From: Bryum argenteum
Taxonomy: Eukaryota > Streptophyta > Bryopsida > Bryales > Bryaceae
DNA length: 64,000 nucleotides
Assembly: GCA_037043015.1 (NCBI GenBank)
Contig: CM073321.1
Coordinates: forward strand, 33,706,101 to 33,770,100
Direction: 5' to 3'
Positions 1 through 24,729 of this stretch are shown piece after piece (within the stretch, counting starts at the first letter, position 1; every line of letters begins with the position of its first letter). The translations under genes and the position numbers were made by a program. Below the pieces are notes generated by a model. The model searched no databases and was not told the DNA's origin. It worked only from the letters and a program-made list of their open reading frames with translations.

Positions 1-730
1 TTGAAGGAATAGAACGAGGGAGATCCTCCACGGCATCATTACGCTCCATCGTTGCTCATCCTCCAGTCTCTAAATTCTGCGTTCCTTGTGCTTTCGAGTA
101 AACATTGCTTCAACTTCCATCCTTTGTCGCGCCTGCGCCTCCTCCTGCATTCTAACAAGCCTTTCCATTAGAGTGTCAACAGATGATGATTCCCTTCGCT
201 TCTTCTCACGCGAAGGGGTGGAAGCCGGAAGAGAGCTATCGGAGAGGCCATGTTTATGGGGATGAAGAAGATGAGAAGATGAGCCTCGTCCAGTTTGGGG
301 CGTTATCGGAAGTTGGGATTCGTAGGCCTCAACTTCTTGATCAGGATTGTCATCGTCGTCACTTGTCCCGATTACTATCCGTCTTGGGGCATTCACGTCA
401 AGTGGTAACTCTACTCCCCTGCCCTTTTTCTTCGCCTTCTCCTTCTTGGCCTTCATGGCGGGTGGTGGTGGTTCCAGTCTTTCCTTGGATCCGGAAGCCT
501 CACCGATCGGGTACCCACCTTCAATATCTTGACGATCCAAGTTGAAGACCTCCATCGAAAGTTTGACGACTTCGTCGTGCTCGTTGCTAGAGCTGATCGT
601 GTAATTCATCAGCGAACACATCTGCGAGTAGACATAGCAAGATATAAACATCTCAATAACTTGTACGTTTAACCCGATTTGAGTTAAAACGGACCTAGCG
701 TGTGAGAGCAGTATAATAATCGGCTGTTTG

Positions 731-1010
731 CATTCAACTCGACTCGTGTTCGATACGAAATATGAACTACTAAGCGCCAGCAATCAATACATTCAACTCG
801 AGTCGAGTTAAATTTAAGAACGCATGAGAAAACATGGTTTTGTAGTAGATTTAATAATCCATTCAACTCGAGTCGAGTTGAATAGAATCCAAGTTAGTGT
901 GAAATGATCCCTCGACACTGAAGTGCGCACTAACCTTGACTCCAATTAAATACAACAAACTTAGGAAGAAACAGATTCATGTCAAAATAGTCAACTCGAA
1001 TCGAGTTGAA
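731..1010. repeat. Type A palindromes inside an intron of the element I gene
   Basis: Palindromes lie at 791-813, 861-883 and 988-1010, with a decayed one near 731. The arms are ATTCAACTCGA and TCGAGTTGAAT around one central base. They fall in the intron between the glycine-rich motif exon and the C-terminal exon, so they are not confined to the element end. Confidence 0.85.
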
Positions 1011-2419
1011 ATATAAAGGATGTCCTTATCCAGGCCGCACAGTAGAGCTTCCCGCCTCCAAAAACACTAAGGATCGCATCCCTTTCCATGTAGAAGAGAT
1101 CAAGCAGCTTCAGGTAGAACTCCATCCTCAATTCTGTATTATAAATACGGTACTCGAGTTCGTTGTATCTCCCGCAGATGTTGAACTCTGGAGTGTCGGG
1201 GGCCGTGAAGAACTTCGGGAGGTTAGTAATCTTCAGTTTCTGCGATTTTTGAAACAAGAAGAGGATCCGGACATGATCCTTGGCCTTCTTGGTCGAGAGA
1301 ATATGATCCTCAAGTCGCTCATATGGAGCCGGAATATATTCCGCATACTCTATCTTGTAGTTCTTTCCGAACTTGCAACTATCGAAGTGATTCTTAATCT
1401 TTGCCTCAACATCCCTACTTCCTCAGATTCAAACCCAAACGGAGATTTCAGTAACCACCGAGTCCGTCATAGACTTTAGGACTTGGAGGACGTTGTAGAA
1501 GTACGAGCCTAATGACGATCTTGATGAAACTGATACCTCCTGTGCTCCGGGGAGATTACGGAAGTCCATTATTCCGACCTTGATTCTCTTGGAAGATAAT
1601 TTGTTCCAAGAGTCACCGTGCCATTCCCTTAGCACATCGTTGTCCAGGTTGTAGGCCCTGAAGTTTGCCTCGCCCTTTGGAACCTGAAACTTCCCCTTGT
1701 TGGCGAGAAAGACTCTAAAGAACTCTGCTGCATACGGCAAGAGTTGCTCTACAGACTTGTTCTTGTTGCTGGGGAATTTGGACCAAGCGATGAACGTCTC
1801 TCCGGGATTCGTAATCATAACGTTTAGTGTAGCAGGCGTTATCTTAAAATCGTTCTTAAATTTCTTCCAGTTCTCCGTCCTAAAGTCCCTACTCGTGCTA
1901 AACAGCATTAAGTCACGGCGCATGTTGTGAATCACACGCTTCACGATGGTCTTCCTCTTGCAGCGCTCCAGCCAGTCGTAAGAGCTGTAGCAATCTACAA
2001 CCACACTCTTCATATGCTTCAAAGTGACTTTGGGGTATGGAAATGACCGTTTTGGGTTCGGTTTGTTTAGCATATGTTCGGCTAATCGTTTGAGCTGGGG
2101 GTAGCTTGTGTTGCCGATCCATTTGAAGAACTCCCTAGAGATGTTTCCATGCTCAAGCTTCCACTTCCCCAACTCCATCTTCCTTCCTGTGTCGGGGTCG
2201 ATGAGCTCCCTTTGGGATGCGGCTGAGATAAGCTCAAGCCAGACCTCGTGGACATCATCAGGAGCACATATGCTTTTAAGCTCATTCTGGATGTTGAGCT
2301 TTTCTCTGGCAGCCTTGCTTGATGTCACTGCTTTCTGGGCCCCCTTAACGTCAATGAGAGCAAATCTAAGCTTTACAGCTTCCATGAACTCTTGTATCAA
2401 CTGCGATATTGAGTTAAGT

Positions 2420-2536
2420 ATTTAACTCGAGTCGAGTTGAAATAGGTTACAGCTAGAATGGAGTCTAGAGAAGGTGTTCATCGAAATAGTTCATCGTTAG
2501 TACTGTAGGACACAATTCAACTCGAATCAAGTTGAA
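2420..2536. repeat. Two type A palindromes in a short intron (about 2409-2553)
   Basis: Palindromes at 2420-2442 and 2514-2536 lie between a donor (AAC|GTATGTG, minus strand, near 2553) and an acceptor (ATATCGCAG, near 2409). The whole intron is about 145 bases, so the pair makes up nearly a third of it. Confidence 0.75.
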
Positions 2537-4039
2537 TGGAGTTGCACATACGTTGAATGCGTCCTTAGCTGGTTTCTAACCCTTCAAGGCCTTCTGTGTG
2601 ACGGTTCTGCCAACCTCATTAGCCTCCTTTGGATTCTCCGGTCTACCAAGGCTTTCCCTCATCTCCCGCGCCCCGATGATGTTTGTCGCCCACGTTGGAT
2701 TTGTATTCATGAAGTGGTTGACCCTGTTGTAGAACGCGGAGATTCTCCGAATCACATACTTATCTTCATTCCATACTACGAAGCAGTTTCATGCCTTAAA
2801 AGAGTCCTTAATCTTCACATCTACATCTAGCCTGTTTTGCAACTGCTTGGAGGCCTCGACACAGTGTTGTCCATCGACCATGTAGAACTCCCCATCTTGT
2901 ATCTCCATTGAAGATTGGGGCTTTACAAGCTTATTCTTCGGGAAGACGCAGAGGCTGTTCTTCTTCTCCTTATCGCACATCTCAATCAGGAAATGCATCG
3001 TGTGCTTGACTTTTTCCTGGTCGAGGTTCCGGATGTTCAGGTCTGTAGGGGGGGGGGGAAAGAGATGCTCGATCGGAATCCCGAAAGTGGCATCTGATAC
3101 GAAGATGTAAGAGTCCTGGCAAAGAGCCCTGTAGTTCTTGAAGACATTCATGGACTCTTTGTAGTCGACAACTTTCTCTACGTTGTCGATTGGGACGTCT
3201 GTCAAGGCGGACACTAAGCTCGCCTGATCAATCTCTACGGGATCAGCCAGAGTCGACTTCTTCGTCGTGACTGATTTGAGCTTCTTTGGTGTCGGCCCCT
3301 GCTGTGTTTGAGACGGATTTGCCTTGCGCCTCTTTGATCTTGTTGTTGGAGGAGTCTGATATAGGATTGACTTGTGGCTGCCACTGTGCATGCTGACTTC
3401 CTGCGTCAAACGAAGGGGCTACATTTGCATCTTCTTGCATTGCAGCTTTGCCTTGAAGTTCACCATGGCATTGACCAATGATCGGAGACGAGGGGCGAGA
3501 ACACTTGGGGGCTGCTGGTTACCAAGCTTGGTTGTGAATCGATACTCGAGAATGTGTTGCTCGACATTTTTCGCCAAGGGATCGTACTGAGAATCTTTAT
3601 ACTCTGGACATGAGCCCAAATGTCGAATTCGATCTTCATAGTGTCGATCATGTAAGTGAACCGGTAGTCTTGGTCCAGAGTCGTGTCTTGAGTGGGGTTG
3701 TCCACGATGCACGTCATGCAGATCCAGTGCGTGTTGTGGACGACGACATTGATGATGTTCTCCTCCAAATTGATAGGAAGGTTGCGCTCTGCTCCCCTGT
3801 ACTTGGTGACGAGAGCCAACTTGTCCGTGTGAGGTGTAAGAAGCATACTCCACCATTCGACATCAGAAGGCTTTGTGTGCACCCACATGTTGCCAAATAT
3901 TACTGGGTCCGCGACTTTGCTGTCTTAATCAGGAACATAGGGCTTGAAGAATGTTGAGAGCCTTTTTTTCGAATTGTTCTCTTGATGAGACGCAGGGGCC
4001 AAATTAGTATTCATATCAGTTTATGGTTACTGCCATGAT

Positions 4040-5056
4040 ATTCAACTCGAGTCAAGTTGAACTAGAAAGCTATCAGTAATTGAGACAGTACGTAGTTGGA
4101 GAGTAAATGTCACGAGAGTTATATTCAACTCGATACGAGTTGAATATATCCTATAGGAAGTATTTCTATCTCCTACATCAGTACATGTTTACTTTTAACT
4201 TGATTCGAGTTGAAAGTTTCGTTACAAGCAATTAACTGTCCAGTATTAGCTTTCTTATTCGAGTTTAATTGTCACGAATTAAATTTAACTCAATTCGAGT
4301 TAAACGTATCCTAGAGGAAGTGCTTTGGTTTCCAACAACTGGACATGTATACTTTCAACTTGAGTCGAGTTGAAAGTTTCATCACGAGCAATTAACTGTA
4401 AAGAACTAGCTCTCTTATTCGAGATTAATTGTTACAAATAGCATATTTGTATGTACTTGATTCGGGTTTGTGATCTTGTGGCAACGATGTTTGGGCATTC
4501 CCTGTCTGCATATACTGATACGGATCTATGAAACTTCAACACGAGGGTGTTTATCTAATTCAACTCGAATCGAGTTGGATATTCAAACTGTTGTTCTTTC
4601 GGGGCTGAGTAGACTGATTTGATCTACTACCTCAATGGCATAGTAGAACCATTGCAACACCGTTCATATCTCGTTCTACTATGCCATTGAGGTAGTAGAT
4701 CGAATCAGTCTACCATCAAGTTTTCTTTATTCAAACCAAACCATCAACTAGAATCGAGTTGAATTGTTCAAGCCTAATTTGACTTTAACCATTAAGAGGA
4801 TTCTAGGTTAGAGATTCAACTCGGGTCGAGTTGGATTCTCTCTGGTCTGTGAACTCGCGGTTTAATTCTTAGAAACGAATTATTTCGAGAATGCAACTCG
4901 GCCCGAGTTGAATCTGATTGTATTCTATACTAATATTGGTATGTACAGGTAATAAAATGTGTTTCTAATTCAAATCCGGTTGAGTTGAACTGCTGAACTT
5001 TATTGAATCTTTGAAACATCAACACAACTCGGTTATCGTTGACTCAAGTTGATCCG
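4040..5056. repeat. Array of type A palindromes, regular spacing, 5' of the element I gene
   Basis: Copies start near 4040, 4123, 4193, 4283, 4353, 4558, 4742, 4814, 4891 and 4968, with a decayed one near 5030. Spacing is 70-90 bases except for two gaps. The gap at 4353-4558 fits loss of copies (half-site TTATTCGAG near 4417). The gap at 4558-4742 is explained by a hairpin insertion of about 105 bases. Spacers between copies share partial similarity (for example 4220-4260 and 4385-4435), so the array is a decaying tandem repeat whose palindrome has been kept. Confidence 0.85.
4609..4713. repeat. Near-perfect hairpin: 41 bp arms, 23 bp loop
   Basis: The left arm (4609-4649) starts GTAGACTGATT and the right arm (4673-4713) ends AATCAGTCTAC. 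They are reverse complements with one mismatch, which would be a G-U pair in RNA. The hairpin lies in one spacer of the palindrome array and accounts for that spacer being too long. I see no clear target duplication. It could be a tiny foldback element or a small-RNA precursor. Confidence 0.8.
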
Positions 5057-5945
5057 TTTTGTAAGCTAAGTATAAAAAACTTGTATTTCGAATAATACAC
5101 GAATACAGAAATTCAATGCCAAACTATACTACTACAACATAGTCAGATTCAGCGAGATTAAAGTAGTGATTACTCACCCATTGTTATACCTGCTTCCTTC
5201 TAGTCTGTGGATACCAAAATTAATTGAACAAGCCTCAGCTTTGTCCTAATTCTGAAGCAAACAATAACGGAATCAAATTTGATCAGTTTTGTGATATCAT
5301 TCATTCACTATCGACAGAGTTATTAGAGAACCATGAAAATCACTACACAACTCAAAGGGCTTCTTAGGAAGGAATTCCATTGAAATCATCAGAATAAAGT
5401 CAAACGCAATTCTAAAGCCTCAAAAAGACAATACATTGATGCATTTTCAAATTACATTTACATCTGCACAAAACAAAATTCAATGCAATCCTGAATGCCC
5501 TTTTTTAGAGCAATTAAATTGTACAATGAATGATTCATAAGGAAATTCTCAAAAGTAACGCAAATTCAAGTAGAAAATCACATACTAGTTACATTCAATT
5601 GCAAATGATTGAGAAATCGATGATCTGGAAGTGAACATACGCATCCTGAATATCTAAAATCACTAAGTACAATCTGATTGACAACTCTCATAAATTGGCA
5701 ATTGAACAGATTTCTGAACTATCTCGAACTAACCCTAAACAACTCAAAAAAATCCACCCACTATGTTTCAAAATTCAATTTCCAGAGCTGCTCTTCAAAA
5801 TTTAGGGTTTTAAAAATTTGATCAACCAGCTATAACAAGCCAGTTTCATCTTTTTCTCTAAATCAGACCTCTACACTCAAAGTTGCTCCTCATCTTTTCC
5901 AAATTAGTCACTCAAATTTCAAGTATCCTTACAGCCATTCAAATT
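5057..5945. other. AT-rich stretch without recognisable genes
   Basis: No coherent reading frame or repeat stands out. By position it would be the outer part of the leader intron of the minus-strand element I gene. Confidence 0.5.
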
Positions 5946-6740
5946 CTAGTGATGTAGTGTGGAAAACTCACAGAAATGAACAAAAAAGGCAACAACCAGA
6001 GAATGAAAATTCAAAACAAAAGCTACAAACAATGGCAAATAACCTACAGGAAGTTGGGAAGTCCAGAAACTTGGGTGAGCGCCGCCCAAGCCGCAAAAGC
6101 GCCATCGATTACAAGCCACCCACGTAATGCAGCGAGAAATGCAATTACCAGACGCGCGGAAAACAGCTCCAATAGCCAATAGCGTCGTGCAACAGAAGTC
6201 TACACCTGCGGAGGCTATCAGGTTCGAAAAGCAGAGAAAGAAGCAATGATGAGCACAGCTAACTGAGTCGAAGCACTACAAGCAGAGAATATATAAACAA
6301 ACGAGTAGCACGACCTACGAGGCCAGGAGATAGGGCGCGCATAAACTCAAAAAGAGGGTGAGCAAATTGCTTGTCAACAAAAACAATGTCGCTGAGAGAC
6401 CGGCGAGTACAGAAACAAGCGGCGGTTCAGAGAGGAGGAAGATGAGGAATCGATTGACAAATACGAGCAACAATAGCATGCGGCGAAGGAAGCGAGCACG
6501 ACGGCGGTGTAAAAACGAGCAAGACGAGGAATCGAATGGGGACCAAACCCTAGCTTCCCCACTCTCTCTTCCCGACCTGAATTGGGGCGGGCTGCCCCAA
6601 ATCCTGCCCGGGCCACCTTTCACACTGCCCTTGCCTACCCAGGCCGCCTTAGACGCTGCCCCCGCCGAATATTGCCGTAGGCAGCCTTTTCTAGCCCTTT
6701 TCATGTCTGCCCCTCTCTGCCCATCCTTATTTGAGTGTGT
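5946..6740 (-). promoter_or_regulatory. GC-rich leader/promoter-like region of element I
   Basis: Read on the minus strand this is a CT-rich and GC-rich tract with small open frames and no conserved protein. It sits outside the palindrome array, exactly as the leader of element II does at 52,563-53,020. Its outer end carries GGGCAGCCCG-type sequence (about 6590). The role as promoter and non-coding first exon is inferred from position and composition. Confidence 0.4.
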
Positions 6741-8100: not shown

Positions 8101-8186
8101 AGGAAGCTTCTTCTGAGACTTCTCAAGCGACTTCCGAAACTTCTCAAGCGCCTTCCGAGACGCTTCGAGATGCTTCTCCATCTTCT
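8101..8186. repeat. Short tandem repeat of CTTCNNGAAAC/CTTCTCAAGCG units
   Basis: Units of about 18 bases (CTTCTGAGACTTCTCAAGCG and variants) are repeated about four times and end in TTCTAGAAG. The pattern of alternating TTC and GAA resembles heat-shock elements, but composition alone could explain it. Confidence 0.35.
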
Positions 8187-9110
8187 AGAAGTTTCTAATG
8201 TATGTCCGTGACAATATATATACTAGTAAAGTCACCATTGCTAAAATGGATACGTGTAGACATGGCCTCCCACGATGGGGAACATCAATTACATCGATCG
8301 ATACCTGAAGATGGAAAATCACTCTAATATCATGTCCACCCGTGTCTATGATATAACTTGTTTGTCCTATTAATACCAATTTTTGTTCTAAATCCTTGGA
8401 CCTAGGTACTATAAATAGAATAACTTCTTCCCAAATTTATTTGGCCTGTATTGTACTATTACTACAACTACTATATTATTCCTATTACATTAAATCATCA
8501 TTAAATTATGAGTATTATATTAATACTATTACAACATAAAATTTTATTAATAATATTATTAGATAGATACATAAGTGGGTAGGAAGGTTTGAAAGAACGT
8601 ATTGAACAATATAAATAAGACAGTGAGAGTATATTGATAGAAGATATCTTTGAGAAACATCATGTATACTATAGACATGCATCACATATATCATGGCCAT
8701 ACATCATTCATACCATAGCCATACATCATACATACCAAAAGATCGTCCAATAGTATTATGTTATAGAAGTAGATTACTGGCTACAAACCGCCTTACAAAC
8801 ACTAACACAATATTTTTCTAATAGTCTTCGAGAAGTCACTTCAAATAGAATGAGAGTCAATTTAGTTATATTGAACCTATATAACGATGAAATATAACTT
8901 AATTATCAACACTCAAATCTTGCACAATTGTTATAACTTTTATACTAGAAATATAACATTAAAATACTAATAATATAGCTAATATATTATTATAATGTAA
9001 TGTTTAGTTAAAAACAAGAAACACATGAAAAAACGAACTAGAGTAAATTTAAGAAGAATTACCCTTGTTTCTTAATTTGTATTCAACTTTATCTTAGAAT
9101 TAATATAATT
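8187..9110. other. AT-rich non-coding stretch
   Basis: No conserved open frame is visible. Short repeats of CATACATCAT occur near 8,690-8,730. Confidence 0.5.
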
Positions 9111-9111
9111 G

Positions 9112-10042
<931 letters not shown>

Positions 10043-10049
<7 letters not shown>

Positions 10050-10544
10050 TTATATTTATTCATATGCCCATTTATTTGTGCTTTTTTTATTCTATGTTAG
10101 TATTCTATGGTTTATTAAGTAGTGTACCACATATTTGATTCCATTGATTGTACCTAATTAAGTAAAGATTTGTTAATGGAATGTTTTCAATTACTCTAGT
10201 TACTCTCATTTTGAAATTATTATATTTTATTTTTTAAATATATAAATACGAATTTGTATTTTTTCCACAAGTCATAGTTATGTATGAAATATTGAATTTT
10301 ATGGAGAAAAATTTAAGACACAATTGTTAGTAAAATATAAAAAATCCATATTTATAGATGGGTTACCCTTTAAAATCAGTTTCCCCCCAAAACATCTTTG
10401 CTGCCTAATATTTTCTAAATCCCGTTTTAAAAAGTGGAATCCTATTTCGGAGCCTAATAAGACAAAATTCATGTTGTGACAAAATGCGTCGGCTTTTTGC
10501 ACAATATCGGGCGTTGAGGATACTCTCACGATGAAGTTGTTGAG
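10043..10544. other. AT-rich non-coding stretch
   Basis: A minus-strand open frame of 96 codons (10,299-10,589) has no family likeness I can recognise and is probably chance. No repeat stands out. Confidence 0.4.
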
Positions 10545-11100: not shown

Positions 11101-11121
11101 ATACTAGTCCCTCGTGAATGA

Positions 11122-11698
11122 ATTCAACTGGAGTCGAGTTCAAATTATATAGCCGTACTATGTATGTCTGATTTCCGATGTACAATTTCAACTCAAGTCG
11201 AGTTAAATTGTAATTTGTGAATTATCAGTCATGGTGTCAGAATTAGGAATGATACATTCATAGGTGTTGATATTCACCTCGAATCGAGTTGAATTGGAAA
11301 TCATCTAGTATCATGTAGTTTATCGTAAGGGCATGTTCCCTTTATGTATGAGGATATTCAACTCGATTCGAGTTGAAATCCACGGTGTGTATATTCGGCA
11401 GGGACACTTCATACTATTATCATCCCTAAATATTTAAATCGAATCGAGTTAAATATTAATTATCACATAATTACAGATATATTTGTTGAGTATCAATAAT
11501 TTTCACAGAATCAGGAATGATATATTCATGGGTGTCGAAATTCAACTCGATTCGAGTTGAATTGGACATCATCCAGTGTGGTCTGCCTTAGCCCTGAGAA
11601 GATAATCTCTTTATAGATCCGAATATTCAACTCAAGTCGAATACATCATCAAATTCAAGACCCTCTTAAGTCTAAATAGACTCGAATACTAAACACCG

Positions 11699-11761
<63 letters not shown>

Positions 11762-12042
11762 TTGATTGGTGTGATTTAATGGCTACTTATTAACAGCTAG
11801 ACACGCTCGTGACACTTTAAATTCCTTAAGTATCTAGAGTACCAGATTCTACGATAATGACTGTTTCGAATATCGTAGGAATTCTATTCCAGGGATTTCA
11901 ACTCGAGTCGAGTTGAATCTATTCATACATCTTCACTTTCTCTAAATTATTTTCTTCTTTTTCTGTTTCTTGGATCGCTTTCAGTGAAATATAAAACTGG
12001 GTAGGTTCAGTCATTATTGTATTCAACTTGACTCGAGTTGAA
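11122..12042. repeat. Array of type A palindromes upstream of the transposase
   Basis: Copies start near 11,122, 11,186, 11,271, 11,355, 11,431, 11,539, 11,895 and 12,020, with a truncated one at 11,630. Most are 65-110 bases apart. The array is split by a pure (TA)n tract (11,701-11,759) and flanking unrelated sequence. Core variants keep the TCGA next to the centre while the outer AAC/GTT drifts. Confidence 0.85.
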
Positions 12043-12100
12043 CCGCAACCAATTCATTTGTTCCTAAGCTATCGTTTGTGATGATTTTTCAATCTCTACC

Positions 12101-14940
12101 ATGGCTGCTCAAGATGTTCAAATGTTTGGTGATTACTCCTCTGGTGAGGATGTTGTGGTGCAACCGGAGGAGCTAGAAAACGTTCCAAACTGTGAAGGTA
12201 TCCCCCGGCGTCTTTGGGCTACTAAGTTCGTTACCCTTTACTGTGACGAGGGTTGGCATGTAGCGGAGGGCCTATGTCACAACATCAATTACGATCTCGT
12301 CCTCGGTAGCAACGGTCCACTTGGGCACTCCCGTGTCGCGGTTCAAATCTCGAAGACCCTTGATGCCATAGTGGTGCCAGATGAGTGGAGATACTCTGTC
12401 AGGGCGTAGCCGTTCGATAAAGTCTTCTATAATGGGGCTAGTCTCAGAGATCATGAGATAAGACACATCCATGACTCTCGTGTTGCACTTCTTGCGAGAC
12501 CTCAGTCACCGCGTAGCGGACGTTACAACTATACAGCTCGGAACCCGCCACGTGATAAATTCGTCAAATCCAAAGGATTATTAACTCAGGAGTCTATCAA
12601 TTCTGTCTCAAGCAAAGTTTGCTGCACCAGAAACTGCGTTCAGCCCTTCCCGAGGGAGAAGATCCGATGTTTCCGAGAGCGGATGTATAGTGGAACGACC
12701 TACCAATTTAGGTTTTACATGAAGCTTGATGTTCACAAGCAGGTTCATCGGAATGCTGACGGGAAGAGGGTGGTCACGGTTGAGGGAATTGATGTTTGCT
12801 TGCCTGCGTGGAGATATATTGCTGGAGTGTCCGAGGCAACCTTCCATCGGTTTCAAACGGACGTGGCCGATGGCGTCATGGCGCATCCCTATGGAAATTC
12901 GTCTTTGCTTAAGCCGCGTAAGCACACGTCGCAGGCAACTGCAACCCTGCGTTGCATTCTTGATAACTCTGCCAATCACATGCCGCATCGAACGAGGACA
13001 TTGAAATCTGGAGAGAAGGTTGTATCGATGATTCTTCCCGCTACGTGGAAATGGAAGAGTGCCATCCCAAAGATCAATGCCGCAAATGAAGGCTTCGATT
13101 TGAAGATGGTCTCGCCATCTTGTCTAAGTAGAATTCGAAAGTTACACTTTCCTGAATTTGATGCCAAGAAACCCGGGGATAACTTCGCTCGGTGCTCCAA
13201 ATGTGATCGGTTGCACACACTCTCTCGTGGCTATATTTCTGGGTTGCAACAAGCACTACTTTGGGCAAAGAAGCTCGAGGTACACTTGGCTGCAGCCGGT
13301 GCTCTTCGGGAGTTATATTATGCAAACAGGTTTAGGTCAAAAACCTACCCGCATGAGTGTTTGGCCATTATGCATGACAAAACGGATCATGCGAAGACCG
13401 CTTCGCCTGTCTTTTCTCACAAGAGTAAGGAGCTTGATGGTCTAATGAAGCTACTAGTATCCGTCACAGGATTGATCGCTCATGGCCACGGAGATGTACG
13501 TTACGCGCATTATGGTCTAGATATTCTCGCACACGATTCAAATTACACGGTGGGCTCTTTTGCTAAGCTGCTCCAATGTATAGAGTTGCCACCAAAGTAC
13601 TCTTCGAAGGAGCTTTTTGTTGGGTCGAGGTCGGCACCTATCTTTGATGCTGTTCTCTAAGGTGCGGAGACTTGCATATTATCACTCCGTCTAGCACCAG
13701 CTCTTCCACTTTGAGGGATTCCTCTTTCGCCAATTCTCAATGTTCAGATGGACAATGCAGTAGGTGACAACAAGAATAGATATGTCTTTCGTTTTTAGTC
13801 TCTCATTGTCGCAAAGAAGATCTTCCGGGAGGTATACGTCAATTTCATGTTGGTTGGGCATACCCATGATGACATCGATGCAATGTTTGAGAGGTGGAGC
13901 ATGTTGTTGAGGAAAGACAATTTTCCCACTATTCCGTTACTCATGAAATCTTTCATCGACGTGGAATCTATTCTAGCCATCCTCCACCTTGTTGAAGAGG
14001 TGTCGGATTTTAAAAGATTTATCGAAGGGTTTATTAAGGATGGAGGGGAAGCACTTTCTGGTCATACGAAGGCACAACAATTAATTTTTTTTTTGGATTT
14101 GACTGGTTGTCGCGAGATGAAGTACAAGGTTTTGTGCAGAGCAGAAGATTGGTTGCCAAATGATACAACCGGAATTAAGTTGTGGAGAGAGGACTCGAAA
14201 GGTCGTTGTTTGTGGCTACGTGGTGATCCAACTCCTAGGACGCATCGTGCAATGAGGGGTGTGGAGGACATTGTGAAGGGCATATCTAGATTTATCAAGT
14301 ACTGGGAGGCAATGTCTAATGAAGATAGAACTGGAGAGTATAGAAGACACTATGAACATCTTGTGTTCTATTGGTGCGCTGTGAAGGTAGCATTAGAGGT
14401 TCCCATTGAACCATCGAATGTTCTTCGGGACGGATTTTGGCCATTATCGAGAATAGATGCGACTTCGGAGGACCAATTTGTGGAAGATGGCAAACTTCTT
14501 GAGGAGTTTGGAGAGGATGAGGCCTATGTTGGAGAGATCCGAGATCGCCCTCAACCATCTTTTTGTGTAGCTCGTGATGTTTATGAAGGATACTTGGTTG
14601 CTATTCGGCTGCTGATGGTGACTCGCGACCGGTGTGGATTGCGCGAGCGTTGTCAGATCCGAACATAAACCCCAAGCAGTCAAATTGCATCCTTATTCAA
14701 TTCTTTCAGCCTACATCAAGGGTTCGAGATGTGCAAGAGACCTACAATGGATGGGATTCGGACAATGGATTGCGTTGGAAGGTTGACAATGCTCAACCTC
14801 CTTTGTGGAAGAATACAGCTTCATTGATGACTTCATGGAAGTCAAAGGTCAAGAAGGATACAACCGAGTGCACTTTAAAATTTTTGGTGGATCAAATTAA
14901 TGTCATTCACGATACTATAGTTGAATTTTCAAATGCTTGA
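12101..14940 (+). pseudogene. DUF7869-type (RNase H-like) transposase, nearly full length, interrupted
   Basis: The start at 12,101 follows the palindrome array. Frame 2 continues to 14,668 with in-frame stops near 12,407 and 13,658 and two more within 13,700-13,800. A single shift near 14,640 then continues to 14,940. Visible parts: an acidic N-terminus; a Cys cluster KVCCTRNCVQPF (about 12,620); KLDVHKQVHR; a CSKCDRLH pair; MHDKTDHAK (13,371); QMDNAVGDNKNRY (13,750); and VGHTHDDIDAMF (13,850). The D-N-K and GHTHDDID motifs are the hallmark of the DUF7869 family, which probably uses an RNase H-like DD(D/E) fold. The C-terminal part (from 14,260) with DIVKGI and FQPTSR is shared with the copy at 61.3 kb. 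Likely role: moving the palindrome-bearing elements. The family name is from memory, not a search. Confidence 0.75.
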
Positions 14941-15892
14941 AGGTCTTATATGTATTAACATCGTATTTGTGTGTTGTAACAACTACATAGTCATGGCTTT
15001 GTCTTACGACTTAGAAATATTAATCTTTCATTTCAAATTCAAAAGATTATAGGCATTTAAAAGTATAGAAGATATGTTAGACCAAATGGTCTACAAGGAT
15101 GTATGGTTTGGAATGTTGGTAGTATTAATGGGGTATGGAATATTTTCAAGTTACTTAGCTTGCTTCGAGCAACACTTTTTCGTGGTAATGGGTTTCATTC
15201 GAAACTAAAAGTACATTGTACGCATTTATGAAATTCTATTTCTATAAAATATTATAGTGTAGGTTTGTTCTTTCCATTTAATACTTTTGTCGATCGATTT
15301 CTGTTATCAAAAATGATAACATGTATTTTATTTGTTCTAAATGATAATAGTGGTTAGCACCACTGATGTTTATGTGCGTCATACATGTCACAACTAAGGA
15401 TACGTGGCTGGTTGGTAGCTCAAATTTTCCTGCCCGCCGAAGCTCACTTAGCAGTACCAAGTCATGTGTACATTTTAGCTGCTCAAACGAGTCCGATCAG
15501 AATCGAACTCGGACCACCTTCGTTATACAGAGACTCCTTCTCATCCAACCACTCAACTCATGACTTGGTGTCCATTTCAAAATTACTCCGGCCTTTATAT
15601 TAATCAATTGGAATTCCGACTTGAAAAGTCCACAATGCACAAACTTTCCCCCATATTATACTATAAATTGAATGGAAACTTTAAGATTCATAACTTTCTA
15701 AGTTATTTGTGTACAACAAAACATCAATCAAAAACCTCTCAATTTTATTTTGAGAGGATTATTAACTCTCAAATTAATGAATATTGGGTTCTAAGGAATG
15801 TTTTCCTCCAAGAGAACATTTTATTGATATGAAAGCACACATACAATTTATTGGTGTAATTGTAGACCTCCAACGAGTAGGCATTATATTAT
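14941..15892. other. AT-rich 3' flank containing a SINE-like piece
   Basis: Apart from the tRNA-like segment at 15,490-15,565 there is no recognisable gene. The stretch joins the type A transposase to genes whose palindromes are type B, so the junction between two elements probably lies here or just to the right. Confidence 0.4.
15420..15580 (-). mobile_element. tRNA-derived SINE-like fragment
   Basis: On the minus strand a box A-like segment (GAGTTGAGTGGTTGG, 15,545-15,559) is followed about 50 bases later by a good box B (GAGTTCGATTCTG, 15,498-15,510). This is the spacing of a tRNA-type polymerase III promoter. It does not fold as an intact tRNA that I can recognise, so a SINE head is more likely. 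Confidence 0.5.
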
Positions 15893-17773
15893 CTACCAAT
15901 CATGACGTGGCGGAGAGGAGGTATCACCACTAGAATTTTTCTTAGTGAATAGACGTTCCTCACTACGTCTATATTTAGAGAATGCAGCCTCGTTTATCTC
16001 CATAAACGCGCCACTTCTACGACGCTTCGATGCAAGCCTCCGTAATAGACGGTGACTCTCGGACGTTAATCGTGCAAGATGAACGCGAGTGTTTGCTCCA
16101 AGAGACAAGGTGCAACGAGCGACATTATTCGACAAGGAACTCTTTAGATTGAATCGAGCTAAATAGACACGGCCATCTACCACGGAGTTGGGAAACACAG
16201 CTTCACCTTGTGGTGCCGCTGCAACCGAGGTCATCACACCGATTAGATCATGGCGGTTTGCAATAATTGGTTGAGTCTGAATAGGGGGACTGTCTACTAC
16301 ACCGTCCTTGTCATTATCCATGTCCTCCTTCGTGTAATCTACAGCCGACGCGTCGTCTGGAGCACAATACATCAACCGACCCCGCCTTTGTTCCAAGGAA
16401 GTTCTCGAGTCCTGACTTGTAATGGAAGGATCGGACACCGTTGAAGGACCAATTACAAGATTTGCTTGCAAAGCACATATGACATATTTGACTAAATATG
16501 GACTGTCCACGCTTTACAATTAAGAACAATAGTTGCAAAATGATTTCTAGAATCTAGGTTCTATGGAGATACTCTTCAAATATTTAGATTTTAAGGTCAT
16601 GAATGGAGGGATCTCCCCATGTTTTAAAGTCCATAAATAAGCCCAAAGTCCATATTTAGTGAAATGATGCATACATGATGGAAGTGGAGAGAGCTGACGT
16701 CCAACGGCAGCAACCTGGTTTATAAACACACCCATTTTAGAAAGTAAGTCCATGACACTATATGCAATGAAAATGGTAGACAATAGAACAATGCAATTAA
16801 TGACGTATGTCGAGGGGAGATTCACCGATCGATCTACAATATGTCTCCATCTAAGCAACAGATAAATATAAGGTTCCTAGGGTGAAAATTAGAATAATAC
16901 CAATTATGAAAGTATTCAAGGCAAATTCTTCCCACTGATTCGGCCCTGATTCCTCAAATATGGAAGATTACGGCTCACGAGCTTATACAACTCTGAATCC
17001 TTTGATAGTTCATTATACGTCAGTCTACGATAGCGCATAGTCTCATAGAAATTCTCAGGACCGTTCAAGTGCACGGCAAGACATATCTCGCCTATTCTTT
17101 TTAATAACTCAGACTTTGGCTCCACCGTACAGGAATGGTTCCACGGATGAGTGAAAAGTGTGTTCTTTGTGGGAACCACAATGCAAGTCTCAGGCTTGGA
17201 AACGACAATGAGCAAGTTATCGTCATTGAGATTGATACCCTTCCTAGGATACAACCGCTGCCGAGGATATTTTAAGAGGATGGAATTTGCCGTAAATGGG
17301 TACTTGGCGAATGCGTAATTCTTCCACAACAGATTATCGCATTGGTTGGAAGCCATGAAAACACTAGGGGCGGCCTCTGACTTCGAGAACAAAAAGGAGC
17401 ATTGTCCATGGACAACCTTAGGACCTAGGGTACTCTAGACGTGGATGTGGCAAAACAAATTTAATAATAAAAGGAACGCGGTCAACCCTGAACGACAGTA
17501 GACGACTTTGCCGACAACTAAGATTGGGACGGTGGAGGAAAAGACCGGAAGATAATTGGGATCCGGAAAAGACAGACACTCTGCAGGCGTTGGGGTAGAG
17601 ACAGAGGCAATTGAACATAGAACCCCGTCCAACTCCAACATCACATTCAACCACTTGGGCTTGGATCGCGAAAGACTGCGCAAGATATGCGTAATGGGTA
17701 GCTCGGGCGAGGTACGATGTTTGGGATGTTTAGACCGTCCTACCTGCAGCGAGGGAACATGTAACAAAGGCAC
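15893..17773 (-). pseudogene. FCP1/HAD-phosphatase-like gene fragment with C-terminal exons
   Basis: Reading from 17,773 on the minus strand: KPKWLNVMLELDGVL corresponds to the DLDGTL/DLDGLL motif of the FCP1-homology (NLI-interacting, HAD) fold, with Leu or Glu where the first catalytic Asp is expected. After a segment ending CHIHV comes an in-frame TAG where relatives have VW(S/T), then STLGPKVV. Further on come YPRQRLYPRKG, NLNDDNLLIVVSKPE and FTHPWNHSC, which match the DDSP and PHPY region of plant FCP1-like proteins. The ORF ends at 16,916. Two further open stretches (16,858-16,547 and 16,510-15,893) may be C-terminal exons with no recognised domain. It lies among transposon genes in the same direction as the ParB gene, so capture of a host gene is a plausible reading. 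Altered catalytic residues suggest no phosphatase activity. Confidence 0.5.
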
Positions 17774-18400
17774 AGGGTATTAAAACAAGAGGGTGTGTAT
17801 CTTGCAAAATGCCGAAGTATGCAAAGAACTGCCAGCACTGATTTGATATTGAATCGCGACACCCACATGGAACATGATGTGGTTGGTGGGGGATTTTGAA
17901 GCAATCGGACAGAACAAGGTATTCAGAAGGGGAGCCTAGTAGAAAAGGACAATGTTTAGGACCTTGTGATGAAAATGACATAGACTCACTGAAGACAAAA
18001 AGTGATGTAGAAAAAAAGAGTCTCAATTTTATTGAATGATATTTCAATAAGTTCAACGTTTATTATTGTACTATGTACTAAAAGCGAAAGAGCATCCAAT
18101 TATTTGGAGACTACTCATCAACCTACTTGTTGCCATTGGTGCCGGACTCTTGTAAAACAAAGAGCGCCGGCTTGAAGATTACTACAAGCAAAAAATTCAA
18201 GATTTAAGGGAACAGCAGAGCAACTGCCATCACCATCAACAATCACAAAGACAATAAAAAAGAAAGGTTAGAAACTAACCTCTTGATTTATTGGTGAACC
18301 AAAGGTTCGACGGTTTGACGATCTTGTCTCTTGCGTTTGTGTTGATTCTCATGAACCTTCACCATAGCAACCGCAAATGCCTGGATCAAAGCAAAACGAA
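17774..18400 (-). other. Possible upstream exons of the FCP1-like gene
   Basis: A minus-strand open stretch (18,056-17,730) has no recognised domain. The interval from 18,060 to 18,300 contains short open pieces only. It lies downstream of the ParB-like gene at 18.4-19.9 kb, and the two genes could not be separated cleanly. Confidence 0.3.
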
Positions 18401-19861
18401 TAAGAAACATGCAATGCGGTTTTAGCTCGAGTCGAAAACATGTCGCATTGCATGTTTCAAAAAACATCTACATACAAGGCGAATATAGCCAAACAGAAAT
18501 CTATTTTGCAAAGAAAAATACATGTCATCTCATACCTCATATCTGGTACGGTTATGTAATTCCTTTGGTATTTCACGACGGTGTGGCTTTTTCACTTTCA
18601 CCGGGTAGCTGTAATCTTTCCAAACCTTTCTTACGCCCTTGATGTTAATTGCCCAGGAAGGAGTGAACGTGCCAGCATTGTTTGTCTTGTTCGCCATATC
18701 CGACACGTCCAGAATCTTGCTTATGTTCGAATGCTACACAACATGGGCTTTCCATGTTTGCAAGGCAAGGAACTTGGTGTCATCAACCTTCCGGTCACAA
18801 GTCAACTCTTTCGCAACCTGAACGTGGTGCTGCCCAATGATAATCCGGAACCGACAAGTTTTGACCAACAATTCCCAATCCCACATCTCAGGCTCATCTT
18901 CAATCTTCAGCATAATGATTATAGTTTGTCTGGAACTGACATCGAGGAAATTCATCAATATGTTCTGGGAATGGGCGATTCCGATCTGTTCCAACGATCT
19001 TACGATGAATCTCGGTTCTGGAGGGTCGAGGAAGTCAATCGACACGTCAAGCGAATTGTTGCAACCAAAGACATAACAATCTGCGCAGTTCCCCCGATAG
19101 TCCTAGAGAGCCTTCGTCGCTTCCGCATACTTGATCTCCTTCTCCGAGACAACCACGTTTATTGTGGGGTTCATGAACGTAAGTGCGCTTCCGGAGGATT
19201 TGCTCCTTTTGGAGCCACAACTGGATGAGATCGGGTTTGGTCTCTTCGATCCCTGCCCGCCTAGACTTCCCTCTGGAGTGCCTAGACTTGACGGAGCATT
19301 TTCGGATGGAGCTTGCAACAGTAGATTCCCGGTCCGTTTCATTGAAGCCTTCCTTTTTTTCTTCGTAGTCTCGAAATTAGATAGAGCCTTCTTCCAAATC
19401 TGCGCCGTGTATGGAAGGTACGATCTTACAAAGGCTTTTGGCAACAAAAAATTGGGTAGCAATCTCGTGTCGAAATGATGCAGCTGAGTGGGATCCACCT
19501 TCCTGACCTTATAATCGCAGATGAAGTCGTGGGAGAATTAGACTACAGTGGGCAGAAATACAATGGTGAAGTCGAAACCCTTGACCTCGAATGCTTCGAA
19601 CTTAATCAAGAGGTATGCGTCTTCATAAGTAACAAGACCGATGAAGGCATCAATACACACAGGTAAAAATGCCCCGTAGGTCCCTGATTGTTGGAAGAAG
19701 AAAAAATGGGTCTTGTTCATCGGACAAATAGACCAAGAGAAAATGGAATTCTTCTTGGGGGTCCACAACCTCCCCAATTGCGCGTCCTCAGCAACAACTG
19801 CAAGCGGATCGTCTGCTGATTCGAGTACGACTGGTTCAAGGTATCCCTCTAGTGCTTGCAT
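18369..19861 (-). pseudogene. ParB/sulfiredoxin-like gene of element II without a methyltransferase part
   Basis: The first Met is at 19,861. An N-terminal domain of about 120 residues precedes a lysine/serine-rich linker (KKRKASMKR, near 19,350). Then comes DYRGNCADCYVFGCNN and, after 18,840, CRFRIIIGQHHVQVAKEL, which aligns with FYMVDGQHCVEASKQL in element I. The following segment (PSWAINIKGVRKVWKD) aligns with PTWATNIIGAREMRES of element I. The reading ends near 18,300 with a basic tail (HKRKRQDR). Two or three in-frame stops interrupt it. No methyltransferase motifs follow, in contrast to element I. A ParB-like fold binding or cleaving DNA is inferred from the GQHxV motif only. Confidence 0.5.
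18404..18458. repeat. 15 bp inverted repeat around a decayed type B palindrome
   Basis: GAAACATGCAATGCG (18,404-18,418) and CGCATTGCATGTTTC (18,444-18,458) are exact reverse complements. Between them lies TTTTAGCTCGAGTCGAAAAC, a type B palindrome whose right arm is changed. The structure sits in an intron-like interval of the ParB-like gene. Confidence 0.8.
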
Positions 19862-19900
19862 GTTGTAGGTGACCTGAAAATAACAAATTTACAGAGGACA

Positions 19901-19923
19901 AATTAGCTCGACTCGAGCTAAAT
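19901..19923. repeat. Single type B palindrome 5' of the ParB-like gene
   Basis: The arms AATTAGCTCGA and TCGAGCTAAAT surround a central C. It lies 40 bases upstream of the Met at 19,861 and belongs to the same dialect as the array at 51.9-52.4 kb. Confidence 0.85.
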
Positions 19924-20225
19924 GAACACATCAAATGAGCTTATGGATATGAGATGGAGTCTTACCATTGTCTCTCAACATGATTTAATATTTTTTACAC
20001 ACTTTTATTTGAATTATGGGATCGAGATTATATTTTATTTTAGTGACATTTAAATTGGAGTAGTGATTTTTACATTAGAATTAGGGCTGACGTCATCATT
20101 TTCCATTACAGTGTATTGACCTTCGTGAAGCACTTAGTGTATGTTTAGATATCAACGATAATCACGATAAGTAATAATTCAATACTGAATTCAAGAACAC
20201 ATAAATAAATAGTATATTATGGCAA

Positions 20226-23200
20226 TCACGAATACATGGCGCTACCAAGTTGAGTACCTATCGGAAAACAAAGCACATACTTCGCTGAAGGTGTAGCACC
20301 ATTGAAGTGCAGGTCACACTCATCAGCCTCAAAGTCTATATACTTAAGCACACTATTACTATAACGTGGACGTGTAGTGTCAGACAAGATGGAAGATGGA
20401 GCTTGAACAAACTTTTGAGCAAGACGCTTAGCGTAGGAAGGTAGGGTGAATGTTGATGGAGAGCTATTGTAGAGATGAGCGTTGCGAGTCAATCGCTCTT
20501 TTAGACCTACAATGCTTAAAGTACAAAGAAAGTCAGTACAATATATTTGTAAGAGCAGAATACGAAATAGAGAAAGAAAATATACGAAGCTACTACGCAC
20601 CAATAAATTTCCGTGGCTTCTTCACAAGCGGTTTGTCAAAGTCATAATCTACGGGGGGGCTGATTCTCCACTTTCTTCATCAGTGGGAAGACCATTCTTG
20701 TAATCCGCTAGTACACCATCAAAGATTTGTTCGTCAGGTTCCATAGCGATGAGGTGTTGGTTTGAGCACGCGCAAGCAATTACAGATGCACCTAAGAAAG
20801 CAGAAACCCACGTTAGAAATGCGAAATGTATAAACAAATTCTCAATTAGCGTTTACGGAAACATTACATGTACTTGCGCTCCAGTCGAAGACTATACCCC
20901 CGTTGTGCGTGAGACAATCTACGAAACATTGAATGAAGGAGGGGTCCTTCTCTCGTGAGCCTCGCCATGGCGTACCGTCCGGACGATAACATAATGTCTC
21001 TTTGTCTACAAAGTTAGAGAGGTGGTCTTCCTCATCAGGTATGATTGCTACACCCGCATATGCGTGTGCCACTTGCCGAGTTTGGAACTTCGAAAGATAC
21101 TCTTTACGAACATAAACTTTGATATGAAAGCAGTGAGTCTGCAAAATACAAGTATAGATATATTAACATACAAGCATAGAAGGCGTTAATAATGAATTGT
21201 GAAAATGGAAACTACAAAGTGCCTTGTTCGTCTTTCGGGTGCAGTACGGTAGAGACCATTGTGAGAGGATTATATCCCCACCAGTCTCGAACAATACAAA
21301 AACTATATGTATGCGACTCAGAATCGAAAGTACGCTTGATTCTACGACATTTGGGATGCATCAAAAGAATGTCTCCAACGTCCGTCAAGTGGTATGCGAC
21401 AAAGAAAAAAAGTTCTTAAAGTAGTTTTTATCAAGTCGGTTCCAGGTTGGAATTTCCGTTGGAGACACACCAGGCACAGGCAAGTTCTCTGGAGCGTCTG
21501 CAAAAATGAGATCAATCCTTGGATGCTTGAGATTATATTCCATCGCCGTACACGGGTACTTCCGGTCTTTTCCAACTTGAGATACACGTGATACATTAAG
21601 TAGTGGATAATAGATTTACATGCACAAGATATAACTAGGGAAATTATAAATGACAAATGTACGGAATAGTACCTTGTTGATGTGTTGGATGATATCGAGG
21701 ATTTGCAAATCACAGTTTCCAGTCTTTGACGACTGATGAACCAAATCTCCAATGTTCCTCTTCTCGAGATACATAGGCAGAGTGACTGAAATTTTTGACG
21801 ACGTGCTGCTACCAATGTGATTGGGTTTTGAAAGAAGGCGTTTGGCAAATTTTGGCTAACTGAGACGGCGAGGAGACTGCGGAGAGTTGTGGTCAACGGT
21901 AAAGGACACAGGAGGGGATCCCGCATTCGTAAGTCCACCTCCGGAAACCTGGGTCAGTCTTCCACCACGTCGAACGACATTGATTGTCGCACCATGTGAA
22001 GTTTGAGTAAGATTAGGGTCCTCGGGACCTTCCAGTTGGAGAGGAGCAATTTCTCCGGAATCTTGTTGAGAATCTTCTACAGGATCCGCAATAGCGTTGC
22101 GTCGCTTCTTCTTTGCTCGAGCTTTGGGCAGTGCCGCCGGGGACGGTGGTGTAGAGCATGAGACAGGTGCGCTTGGTAGAATCGAGAGGTCGTCGTCGTC
22201 GCCGTCATCATCGATCTCCACAGGTGCATCACCAGCTAGACGTGAACCGAGGTTTTGAACAAGTTCTTTCTCCTCCTTGTGCAAAAAGTTAGCCTGACAC
22301 CCAAGAAACCAACCCTCCGTCATCAACTGTGCGTTAGTAAATTGCCTCTGTTGGAATTCGGAGAAGATGCTAGAGGGATTGTTTGTGACTGCAATGTCTT
22401 CCAACTCCAAAGGAATGGACCATGAAGCTAATGCTCCCTTCGCAACAAGCTCTTGCTTCAAGTACCTATAAACAGAAGATCATATTAGAACAACGGAATG
22501 GAATATATGAAGTAGAGTTTTTTAGTAGAAAATTATCTAATGGGAGGCATACCGAAATAACAGTCGTTTGATGGTGACTTTACCACCTCCAATCTTTTGA
22601 ATATCTGTGCCTTTGATGAACTTTGGGCTGGCATTTGGAGCAAGGTAGTTGGCAAATGTCTTCTCCCAGTATAGCAACCTTCACTTCTCGACATATGCGG
22701 ATGGCTTGAGGACGGCATCAGACCATTGAATGTTGAGATTCTCTTTCTCGATAAGCTTCTCCAATTCACTTTTAAGAGATTTCTCCAAGTGCACATACAT
22801 AGAACACGTTAAAAAATATATTACTCAAATGGCAATAGTAAGGTAAATACAGAAGTAGGGACCAAATTACCTATGCCCATAGAGAAGCACGATGGAGAAA
22901 TCTAATCAAACTTTTATCCTTCATAGGGCAAGCCTCCGGGAAGTGGACTGATTGACGAACATCGTTTGGTGAGTTCCACCATTGCAACCACTTTCCCTTG
23001 AATTCAAAGTGAACATTTGTAGTTGCTACCATGTGCAAGCGATTGATTGTCATATCCGGTTTGAGATTTTTGCTGTAGTGTGCATAAATCTGCATACAAT
23101 ACGGATTGGAATACAAAATTTAGTATTGGAAAGCAATAATATATAGGTGGAAAAGGAACCTTAAAAAAATGACATACACACGTCTTTCGGGAATTCTCTC

Positions 23201-24600
23201 CGAAGATTGTAATTCGCCACTGAGACCATCTTGTCGAAATTTTTGCCACGGAATGCTTTTATTTCTGCTTTGATCGCATTATCCATGGCACTCTATACTC
23301 CCGGTCCCGATTGCTTCTCTTTCAGGACAGTGGCATAGTAAGCAGTCTCGGCATCGTCCGATGCTTTGGCCAACCTCCTCTGTACAAAGAAAAACCAAAA
23401 ATAAGAAAATGAGAAAAATTAAATATTATGTACAATAGACAAGTACATGTAACCAGGGTTGTCATACCGGGCGGGCACGCCGCCCGCCTGTCCGTCCGAT
23501 TGAGTTGTGGCTCGCCCGATAGGGTCAAACGGCTGTTGACTTTTAGTTTAGGTAAAAAAACAACGACGTGGCAAGGATTTAGGTGAAAACTAAGCCGCGT
23601 ACGGGCCGCGTGGAACGCCACACACGCTTCTTACTGCAAAGTTTGTTACCCACAAAAAATTACACACCCTCTACAATCAAGGTGGGCGGGCACGCCCGTC
23701 CGTCCGGGACAACTCGAGACCCGTTTTGCCCGCCCGGTTACCTCAACACGCCCAATATGACAACCTTGCATGTAACGAGAACTTACCAAACATAAAAACT
23801 TAACGAATATGTCTAGGATGACAAGGTACCAAGTTTCTTTTTTCGCCTTGGCATTCCTGCAGATTCTGTAGTCCTCTGAACCTATGAGATCTTTGAAATC
23901 ATGCACTTTCAGCTTATTAAATTTCCTCATGCGTTGAAGTTTAGCACATAGGCTATCTTCAACATGGTCATGTTCAGTAGGCCTACATAGCGGAATCAGA
24001 AATTAGTAACATTGTAGGAAGATAAAATATATAACAAATTGAAGTTAAAAATAAGTGATATCCTCTTACCAATTGATGTCATTCATAACGTCGAGGAGCA
24101 AACTGCTCTCCCCGCGAGCATCAAGGATGATACAGTCGACCGAAATATGCCACGGAGCATCCAGCTTATTGTACCTTTCAATGTGCCGCATCCACGCCGT
24201 AACACGATGGTTACCTTTGTGAACATAGAAGTACTTACCGATGAGATTATGGAGATCCGGATCCGACCGCAACGTCTTTTCAAACTCGTCATTAGCCTTT
24301 CTCCAAAGCGTATCCGTGAACACATCATCTTTGGCATCGACAATTTTTTCTCTCACTTTCCTATCGAAGGGAGAAACGTACATGACCCGGCGCCCTGGCG
24401 ATAGCCTTTGTTGAACTTATTCTCCAATTTTCTGACGTCTTATTCCTAGACAAACAAGACGACACAATGGAATTAGCATGCGAGACTTCTTCACAGGTTT
24501 GTATCGCAACCTGTTGATGATGGCAATTGAATCACTCTTGTGAATCATTCGCATCTCATTTGCACTCCAGTCTGGATCTTTGTTTTAGAGATTAGGGGGC
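20226..24600 (-). pseudogene. ParB-like plus amino-methyltransferase-like gene of element II (3' part)
   Basis: Several exons read on the minus strand. Near 24,383-24,066 an exon carries GKYFYVHKGNHRVTAWMRH, a ParB/sulfiredoxin-like motif. Linker exons follow (23,985-22,000), including an acidic stretch and a nuclear-signal-like RAKKKRR (22,100). From about 21,600 comes a permuted amino-methyltransferase fold: PRIDLIFADAPENLP (place of DPPY), LTDVGDILLMHP, VRDWWGYNPL, then PWRGSREKDPSFIQCF and NGGIVFDWSAST (SAM motif, 20,890), and GASVIACACSNQHLIAMEPD (20,790). The last exon ends near 20,226. The domain order equals element I. The DPPY equivalent reads DAPE, so activity is uncertain. The 5' part continues at 42,763 beyond the inserted hAT element. 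Frame changes and stops are present. Confidence 0.65.
23446..23776. mobile_element. hAT-type MITE, 315 bp, with 8 bp target duplication
   Basis: The element runs 23,454-23,768. It begins CAGGGTTGTCATA and ends TATGACAACCTTG, which are inverted copies with one mismatch. It is flanked on both sides by CATGTAAC (23,446-23,453 and 23,769-23,776), an 8 bp target duplication as hAT elements make. The inside is GC-rich near both ends (GGGCGGGCACGCC and GGGCGGGCACGCCC). It has no coding capacity. The first 11 bases equal the ends of the giant hAT element 0.8 kb away, so that element's transposase could have moved it. Confidence 0.92.
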
Positions 24601-24608: not shown

Positions 24609-24729
24609 CAGGGTTGTCAGGACGACCGGACCAGGGCGACGATCGACCACCATGGTCCGTCGTCCCTCGGCCCCTAGGACTGTCGGTGACATAACGGGTT
24701 TTTTATAATTTACCTAGGGTAAATTACCG

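Follow-up and report, generated by a model that had tools for sequence, protein, structure and literature searches.

The worked example of a sequence-specific anti-silencer encoded by a transposable element (TE) is VANC of the VANDALs (PMC5735166, PMC10398659). Its motifs lie in introns, intergenic DNA and terminal non-coding DNA, and evolve by tandem repetition and co-evolution (PMC5735166); RNA-directed DNA methylation is aimed at the VANC-bound regions (PMC10398659). A bacterial precedent is VirB, a ParB-type antisilencer of Shigella that loads at palindromic virS sites, forms a cytidine triphosphate (CTP) clamp and slides (PMC10770331). Here we analyse a 64,000-nt stretch of a plant genome of 258.8 Mb in 25 contigs (C1:33,706,101-33,770,100, hereafter the window). 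AUX/IAA passes its cut-off at one place in this genome (two neighbouring exon matches) and in 0 of 14 control genomes, which marks the host as a land plant and, since the gene is single, points to bryophyte grade. At the left end of the window lies a copy, element I, of a large repeat element, probably a DNA transposon, that we call family 1. One of its genes encodes a protein with a conserved GQH motif (the GQH protein), and its non-coding DNA carries arrays of 21-bp palindromes that look like a means of self-recognition, perhaps of escape from being switched off.

Family 1 resembles VANC of the Mutator-like VANDALs of Arabidopsis in two respects: motifs are clustered in tandem in introns, intergenic and upstream DNA, and the motif differs between related families along with the protein. 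In having an element-specific non-coding motif that differs with the protein clade, family 1 follows the pattern of VANC. By contrast, the VANC21 motif is the 9-base YAGTATTAY whereas the family 1 sites are 21-bp palindromes, and the partner genes of family 1, one encoding a DUF7869 protein and one NIF-like, are unlike those of a VANDAL. No VANC-type or Mutator-type transposase domain appeared among the Pfam matches, a search that did not extend to comparing the sequences with VANC or VANA directly. The likeness to VirB lies in a ParB-like domain (weakly supported in GQH), in palindromes upstream of genes and in the anti-silencing proposed below. Family 1 probably works like VANC or VirB, an analogy of function and not a claim of membership in either.

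The palindromes have 10-bp arms around one base. Their sequence is either of type A (TTCAACTCGANTCGAGTTGAA) or of type B (TTTAGCTCGANTCGAGCTAAA), apart from some hybrids, for example TTTAACTCGAATCGAGCTAAA. The window holds 34 of them, 25 with a TCGA core, whereas three single-base shuffles gave a mean of 5.7. Arrays of them stand 5' of the GQH gene, and further palindromes occupy its introns (inferred throughout from reading frames and homology) and lie upstream of DUF7869 genes. In element I, A-type sites were found by palindrome scan in an array 5' of the GQH gene (4041-4912), in intron 1 (2421-2536; sites at 2421-2441 and 2516-2536), in a second intron (792-1010; sites at 792-812, 862-882 and 990-1010) and in an array upstream of the DUF7869 gene (11273-12042). 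The same scan located B-type sites on the 5' side of an eroded GQH relic (19902-19922), in an array at 51867-52273 and in another upstream of a second DUF7869-related gene (60575-61147).

This placement recurs in other copies. In 14 of the 15 genome copies taken as 10-kb pieces (the degenerate L046 left out; L numbers denote genome loci), 263 sites fall in 86,529 bp of non-coding DNA and 0 in 52,085 bp of exonic DNA, a site being counted when it departs from its clade's type by no more than 3 mismatches. The GQH-gene introns hold palindromes in the same proportion of copies, 14/15, L046 being the one without. In L052, the place that matches the window's array preceding DUF7869 holds 11 palindromes of type A when up to 2 mismatches are allowed. 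Moreover, the reading frame runs past the exon edge into the palindrome's peptide in 25 of 73 public metagenomic protein relatives (P numbers; 70 of family 1 and 3 of the second family described below; up to 1 residue off), while reversed peptides gave 0/73; a 26th match, P0069, lay inside an exon and was dropped. The placement is therefore common to distant relatives. Across the genome, exact B-type 21-mers number 5,878 and exact A-type 17-mers 947, with 0 for the reversed controls.

Each copy carries essentially one palindrome type, A loci having 0-3 near-B sites. At up to 2 mismatches, L001-L039 hold 1-19 A and 0-3 B sites, the nine B loci (L040-L045 and L047-L049) hold 10-31 B and 0 A, and L046 holds 1 A; the loci partly overlap, and four of them, L001-L004, had been selected by the A site. 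A tree of the N-half protein rows (47 rows, 39 labelled; from L006-L034, 7 of 29 loci are represented) requires at least 2 changes of type as compared to a shuffled mean of 12.7, and 0/500 shuffles were as low, a result that near-copies help and in which one of the two changes comes from P0032 alone (B peptide one residue off). P0032 and P0027 are close metagenomic proteins with apparently different types (B, one residue off, and A, respectively), possibly a recent change of type.

Within sites, one-sided changes predominate (A, 64 versus 13 still paired; B, 55 versus 1), so sequence, not RNA pairing, is kept. The arms are near-invariant while the centre base varies, the arms being partly fixed by the search rule of up to 3 mismatches. 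Fixed arms and one-sided changes fit protein-DNA binding better than RNA pairing. Non-coding sites, tandem growth at spacings that include 33 and 46 bp, a type that is essentially uniform within an element, and the link between type and clade are, to judge from sequence, what an element-encoded recogniser would leave; combined with the VANC pattern and the VirB precedent, they lead us to favour anti-silencing by the GQH protein.

We propose that family 1 encodes a sequence-specific factor that would recognise the 21-bp palindromes across the element's own non-coding DNA, and that the GQH protein itself, bound as a dimer, would be the recogniser. By covering the element's regulatory DNA it would keep host silencing from settling, and the two site types, following the protein clade, would keep the lineages' systems private. 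The DUF7869 protein would be the putative source of mobility, and RNA polymerase II is a possible target of the NIF-like protein, a guess from its family. That some element-encoded protein binds the palindromes seems to us likely; the whole chain, in which the GQH protein binds its own palindromes and acts against silencing, is more tentative, with a chance that we put slightly short of even.

The N half of the GQH protein bears on this proposal. Its conserved block reads WTIRAFEERG...LCVMP...FWIINGQHSVAAS and in its motif resembles ParB/Srx proteins. The profile phrog_1033 ('ParB-like partition protein') matches P0040 at the GQH motif (E 0.048; one of three N-half relatives given), and found nothing in the five other proteins given besides P0040 and an exon of the second family. 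From these likenesses we infer a putative ParB fold for the N half. In a survey of the ParB fold, sulfiredoxin is the commonest eukaryotic form, and the survey's main text contains neither 'transpos' nor 'plant' (PMC12704722). Searches with NCBIfam models for ParB or methyltransferase, and PDB profile searches with the two halves of the family 1 protein, gave no useful match. Viral contigs yielded 67 pattern matches and 0 relatives, and phage records likewise gave nothing. A Ulp1-like peptidase, considered for the N-terminal part, was rejected since it had no Pfam match.

Several results weigh against the proposal. DUF6551 reaches E 0.0034 on the window exon, below the cut-off, and of 34 relatives it matches this one alone; Pfam gave no significant ParB match, and PF02195 none for the exons and relatives given. 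The GxxR arginine of ParB is absent from all 34 GQH rows, most of which read GQHS; GxxR is the nucleotide-binding motif of ParB. A CTP clamp for GQH is doubtful because this arginine is missing in every row. According to the ParB-fold survey, changing the P-motif arginine entails loss of nucleoside triphosphate binding (PMC12704722). No helix-turn-helix was identified in the GQH protein; in this, in the missing arginine and in belonging to a eukaryotic element it is unlike VirB. The metagenomic row P0032 appears as type B inside an A clade. For family 1 as a transposon, the search turned up no left end, terminal repeats or target duplications; the one boundary placed is the right end of element I. 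Finally, the DUF7869 protein could be the binder because sites also lie upstream of DUF7869 genes.

For the C half of the GQH protein, neither profile libraries nor the PDB returned a useful match, and no catalytic motif is recognisable. When aligned to L054, a methyltransferase-like gene described below, 10 of 18 rows align best at or through the motif I register (for example FYIRILDMFCEQGDSVFELYAGT on FFQTLIDMCSKEGDIVVDLTAST), and the z values of all 18 lie between -0.4 and 4.2, with at least 3 in 3 rows and 0.6 for the window row. The C half is possibly a degenerate methyltransferase.

The preliminary description of this DNA had joined element I and a gene at 20226-24600 (minus strand; element II) as two copies of one transposon family that encodes ParB-like and methyltransferase-like proteins. 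We rejected this: profiles of element I miss 20,226-24,600 (best E 2.6), and profile-profile comparison, in which the GNHR alignments are very shallow, gave a probability of 1.5% for the ParB parts, whose alignment (E 0.034) lies at the GNHR/GQH motif, and one of 0.06% for the C parts. Nor do copies of the two co-occur, with 4/150 within 25 kb as compared to 7.0 expected; this and the other neighbourhood counts hold among the matches listed. By sequence, family 2, to which element II belongs, is a separate family without visible kinship to family 1. Sharing of an element between family 2 and DUF7869 was likewise rejected (9/150 places within 25 kb versus 8.0 expected); 3/150 places lie near a second DUF7869 lineage, a count without random control. 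For family 2, 150 matches were scored among 992 candidates; they lie on 13 contigs, most without stops.

The description of element II itself held up. A GNHR ParB-like motif, which is of the GxxR type, lies in an exon at 24,069-24,416, followed by a motif IV part (~21,388-21,570) and a motif I part (~20,650-20,950); the exons read YFYVHKGNHRVTAWMRHIERY...WHISVDCIILD, then HPRIDLIFADAPENLP, then GGIVFDWSAST...HLIAMEP. At 63750-64000 (minus strand), cut by the window edge, lies the last exon of another copy, as described, and it belongs to family 2 (68.7% DNA identity over 195 bp to 20,284-20,475, E 9e-14). In L051, a relative with 83.6-86.1% DNA identity to the window gene, the matching exons look open, and its GNHR exon matches phrog_1033 (E 0.0031).

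The methyltransferase part of family 2 was connected to known enzymes through L054. N6_N4_Mtase (PF01555) passes its cut-off at two genome places (C4:20498341 and C7:9878472), one of which is L054 (E 3.5e-6, over the curated cut-off); PF02195, the ParB/Srx profile, passed for none of the exons and relatives given. L054 reads VDLIIIDTPFD, then EGDIVVDLTASTGASLRACRASGRHFFGIEEDY, with DTPF near-canonical, and aligns to L051 at motifs I and IV with z 12.1 and 17.8 (0/500 shuffles). Its motif I region also aligns with the adenine methyltransferases DpnA (E 5.7e-4) and CcrM (E 0.03; PDB 5hfj, 6pbd), a likeness of L054 rather than of the window gene. Given its motif order, the alignment to L051 and the Pfam and DpnA matches, element II does have the permuted arrangement, with motif IV ahead of motif I. 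The window gene, the first exon of L051 and P0072 had no Pfam methyltransferase match of their own. We conclude from sequence that family 2 pairs a ParB-like domain with a relative of beta-class methyltransferases, by way of the intermediate gene L054. Motif IV is not DPPY but DAPE in the window and L051, DAPS in P0072 and DTPF in L054; methyltransferase activity of family 2 is doubtful because the catalytic motif is altered to DAPE/DAPS. Family 2 resembles phage fusions of a ParB-CTPase fold with an N6_N4 methyltransferase in joining the two in one gene, and is unlike them in its plant genome, its intron-split gene and its altered catalytic motif (PMC12704722). Among the matches listed from the open-licence PMC literature we found no report of a ParB-like and methyltransferase pair in a plant transposon, nor of a ParB-like anti-silencer in one; that such genes occur in plant repeat elements stands well for element II and weakly for element I.

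Element I was confirmed to hold a broken member of a large gene family, the open reading frames at 70-3,924 (minus strand) having several genome matches with open frames near 500 aa; the extent of 70-4014 given for it in the preliminary description proved too small, its ParB likeness is marginal and its methyltransferase part is not demonstrable. The element runs from past the window's left edge to ~15,785, at least ~16.5 kb, and its gene order is NIF-like gene, GQH gene, palindromes, spacer, palindromes and DUF7869 gene. On the minus strand lie a tail exon of the GQH gene (70-783; an open reading frame that, by eye, corresponds to the tail exons of L035-L041), exon 2 with the candidate degenerate methyltransferase-like C half (994-2421; profile A2, E 1.4e-128 at 1432-2421 and 8.3e-36 at 994-1422) and the broken exon 1 with the N-terminal part and GQH motif, where DUF6551 falls (2579-3924; profile A1, E 1.1e-58, 3.5e-28 and 1.2e-15). 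Profiles A1 and A2 were built from metagenomic relatives, 40 of which cover the N-terminal/ParB half and 30 the C half, with two window exons themselves among the rows.

Between the two divergent genes lie tandem repeats of a ~250-bp unit (9071-10060), common to L036-L039, and homology to other copies continues through 10.1 kb of the window. The DUF7869 gene, a candidate transposase, lies on the plus strand at 12218-14668 (PF25273, E 3.5e-18 at 13799-14668 and 0.0006 at 12410-13660); no paper on DUF7869 was found in the open-licence PMC literature. The right part of the element (14560-15785) is 88.8% identical to L053 over 1,237 bp, with homology ending at ~15,785-15,790. The order recurs in a copy at a distance of 17 Mb, which has GQH, palindromes, spacer, 11 palindromes and DUF7869 at 88% identity, the later part of DUF7869 lying outside the fetched piece.

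The linkage of these genes is seen across the genome. From 150 GQH matches scored among 691 candidates, merged by hand into 120 places, and 135 DUF7869 places scored among 1,660 candidates, DUF7869 lies within 25 kb of 57/120 GQH places (random placement mean 10.4), 56 of the 57 upstream and divergent and 41 at 8-12 kb. A NIF-like gene lies 3.9-5.6 kb downstream on the same strand in 15/21 divergent GQH places, a count without random control for which 53 of 144 NIF-like matches were used (the top-ranked ones and others noted beside GQH copies). Just outside the window's left edge is a NIF/FCP1-like gene 84.6% identical to that of L038; PF03031 matches the gene in L041 (E 2e-12) and L038 (E 2.1e-14), and a search against the PDB gave 0 matches. 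Its motif is DLNG (L041:8649-9455 and relatives; L050:2776-3498), whereas canonical NIF/FCP1 members carry DxDx. A gene resembling RNA polymerase II carboxy-terminal domain phosphatases inside a repeat element is unusual in itself. The mobility of family 1 is inferred from copy number and similarity, and the closeness of L038 and L039 (93.6% identity over 5.6 kb, 96.8% over 4.1 kb) suggests a fairly recent spread.

The chief rival to binding by the GQH protein holds that the palindromes are binding sites at which DUF7869, as candidate transposase, acts in transposition with GQH as a helper. DUF7869 and GQH travel together, and arrays precede DUF7869 genes at 11,273-12,042 and 60,575-61,147 in the window and in L052. 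However, palindromes also sit in the GQH introns of 14/15 10-kb copies, usually 8-12 kb from the DUF7869 match (41/57), and terminal placement of the sites is at most putative; we consider this rival unlikely, at roughly one chance in four. Action in RNA, as intron or leader hairpins that aid splicing or give small RNAs, is suggested by the 10-bp arms around one base and their presence in introns. This is harder to square with arrays upstream of genes, with changes that are mostly one-sided and uncompensated, and with a clade that shares sequence and not pairing alone, and we judge it improbable.

The preliminary description offered self-marking as one reading, in which a ParB/methyltransferase protein would methylate the palindromes at adenine or cytosine-N4 (6mA/4mC). 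Family 2 does have a methyltransferase relative, and ParB-N6_N4 methyltransferase fusions exist in phages (PMC12704722). Yet neither L051 (4.4 kb) nor window 20,226-24,600 contains an A or B palindrome, motif IV is DAPE/DAPS, and the methyltransferase part of family 1 is not demonstrable (z at least 3 in 3/18 rows). Among the copies examined, then, palindromes occur only in the family without a demonstrable methyltransferase. The window's palindromes accompany the family 1 and DUF7869 genes, where they fit a role in self-recognition as had been suggested, and not the element II gene; marking by methylation has little to commend it. We assign an equally small chance to passive repeats that pile up in non-coding DNA and diverge with the element without any binder. 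Tandem spacings such as 33 and 46 bp suggest the local duplication that this would involve, but palindromes also lie past exon edges in metagenomic relatives, and the arms are near-invariant while the centre varies (the search rule partly fixing the arms).

Other features of the window include a NIF/FCP1-like relic (17135-17686, minus strand; tblastn 26%, E 5e-8), the eroded second GQH copy (18533-19888, minus strand; profile A1, E 5.4e-23, 9.3e-9 and 0.0094) and the second DUF7869-related gene, of another lineage (61503-62560, plus strand; 34-42% to window 12218-14668, with 61503-62096 lacking a Pfam match of its own). A repeated gene with CTCP...CRPCKH, SWIM-like by eye, lies at 48,297-51,333 (plus strand) and at L053:1233-3501 (minus strand), directly past the right end of another family 1 copy; it is perhaps a Mutator-like element. 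GC-rich stretches with RPTDRP/GRPSDRP-type repeats in several frames occur at 24,710-25,180, 32,041-32,424, 37,285-37,700 and 41,924-42,650. An Rfam search gave 0 hits. Contig C1 (44.1 of 258.8 Mb) holds 93/120 GQH, 97/135 DUF7869 and 61/150 family 2 places among the matches listed, whose ranking follows their similarity to the C1 copies in the window itself. This contig may be rich in repeats and is perhaps a sex chromosome.

A broader reading would make family 1 a eukaryotic counterpart of ParB-parS: a ParB-fold protein would load at the element's palindromes, spread and block silencing, with site and protein changing together, and the same genome would hold a second family, of no visible kinship, in which a ParB-like domain is likewise joined to a methyltransferase relative. 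This we hold to be doubtful, less probable than the proposal for the GQH protein itself. If binding and anti-silencing by the GQH protein are true, the anti-silencing strategy of TEs can arise from a protein other than VANC, and ParB-like biology would extend to plant mobile DNA. Types A and B would then offer natural protein/site pairs for a specificity swap.

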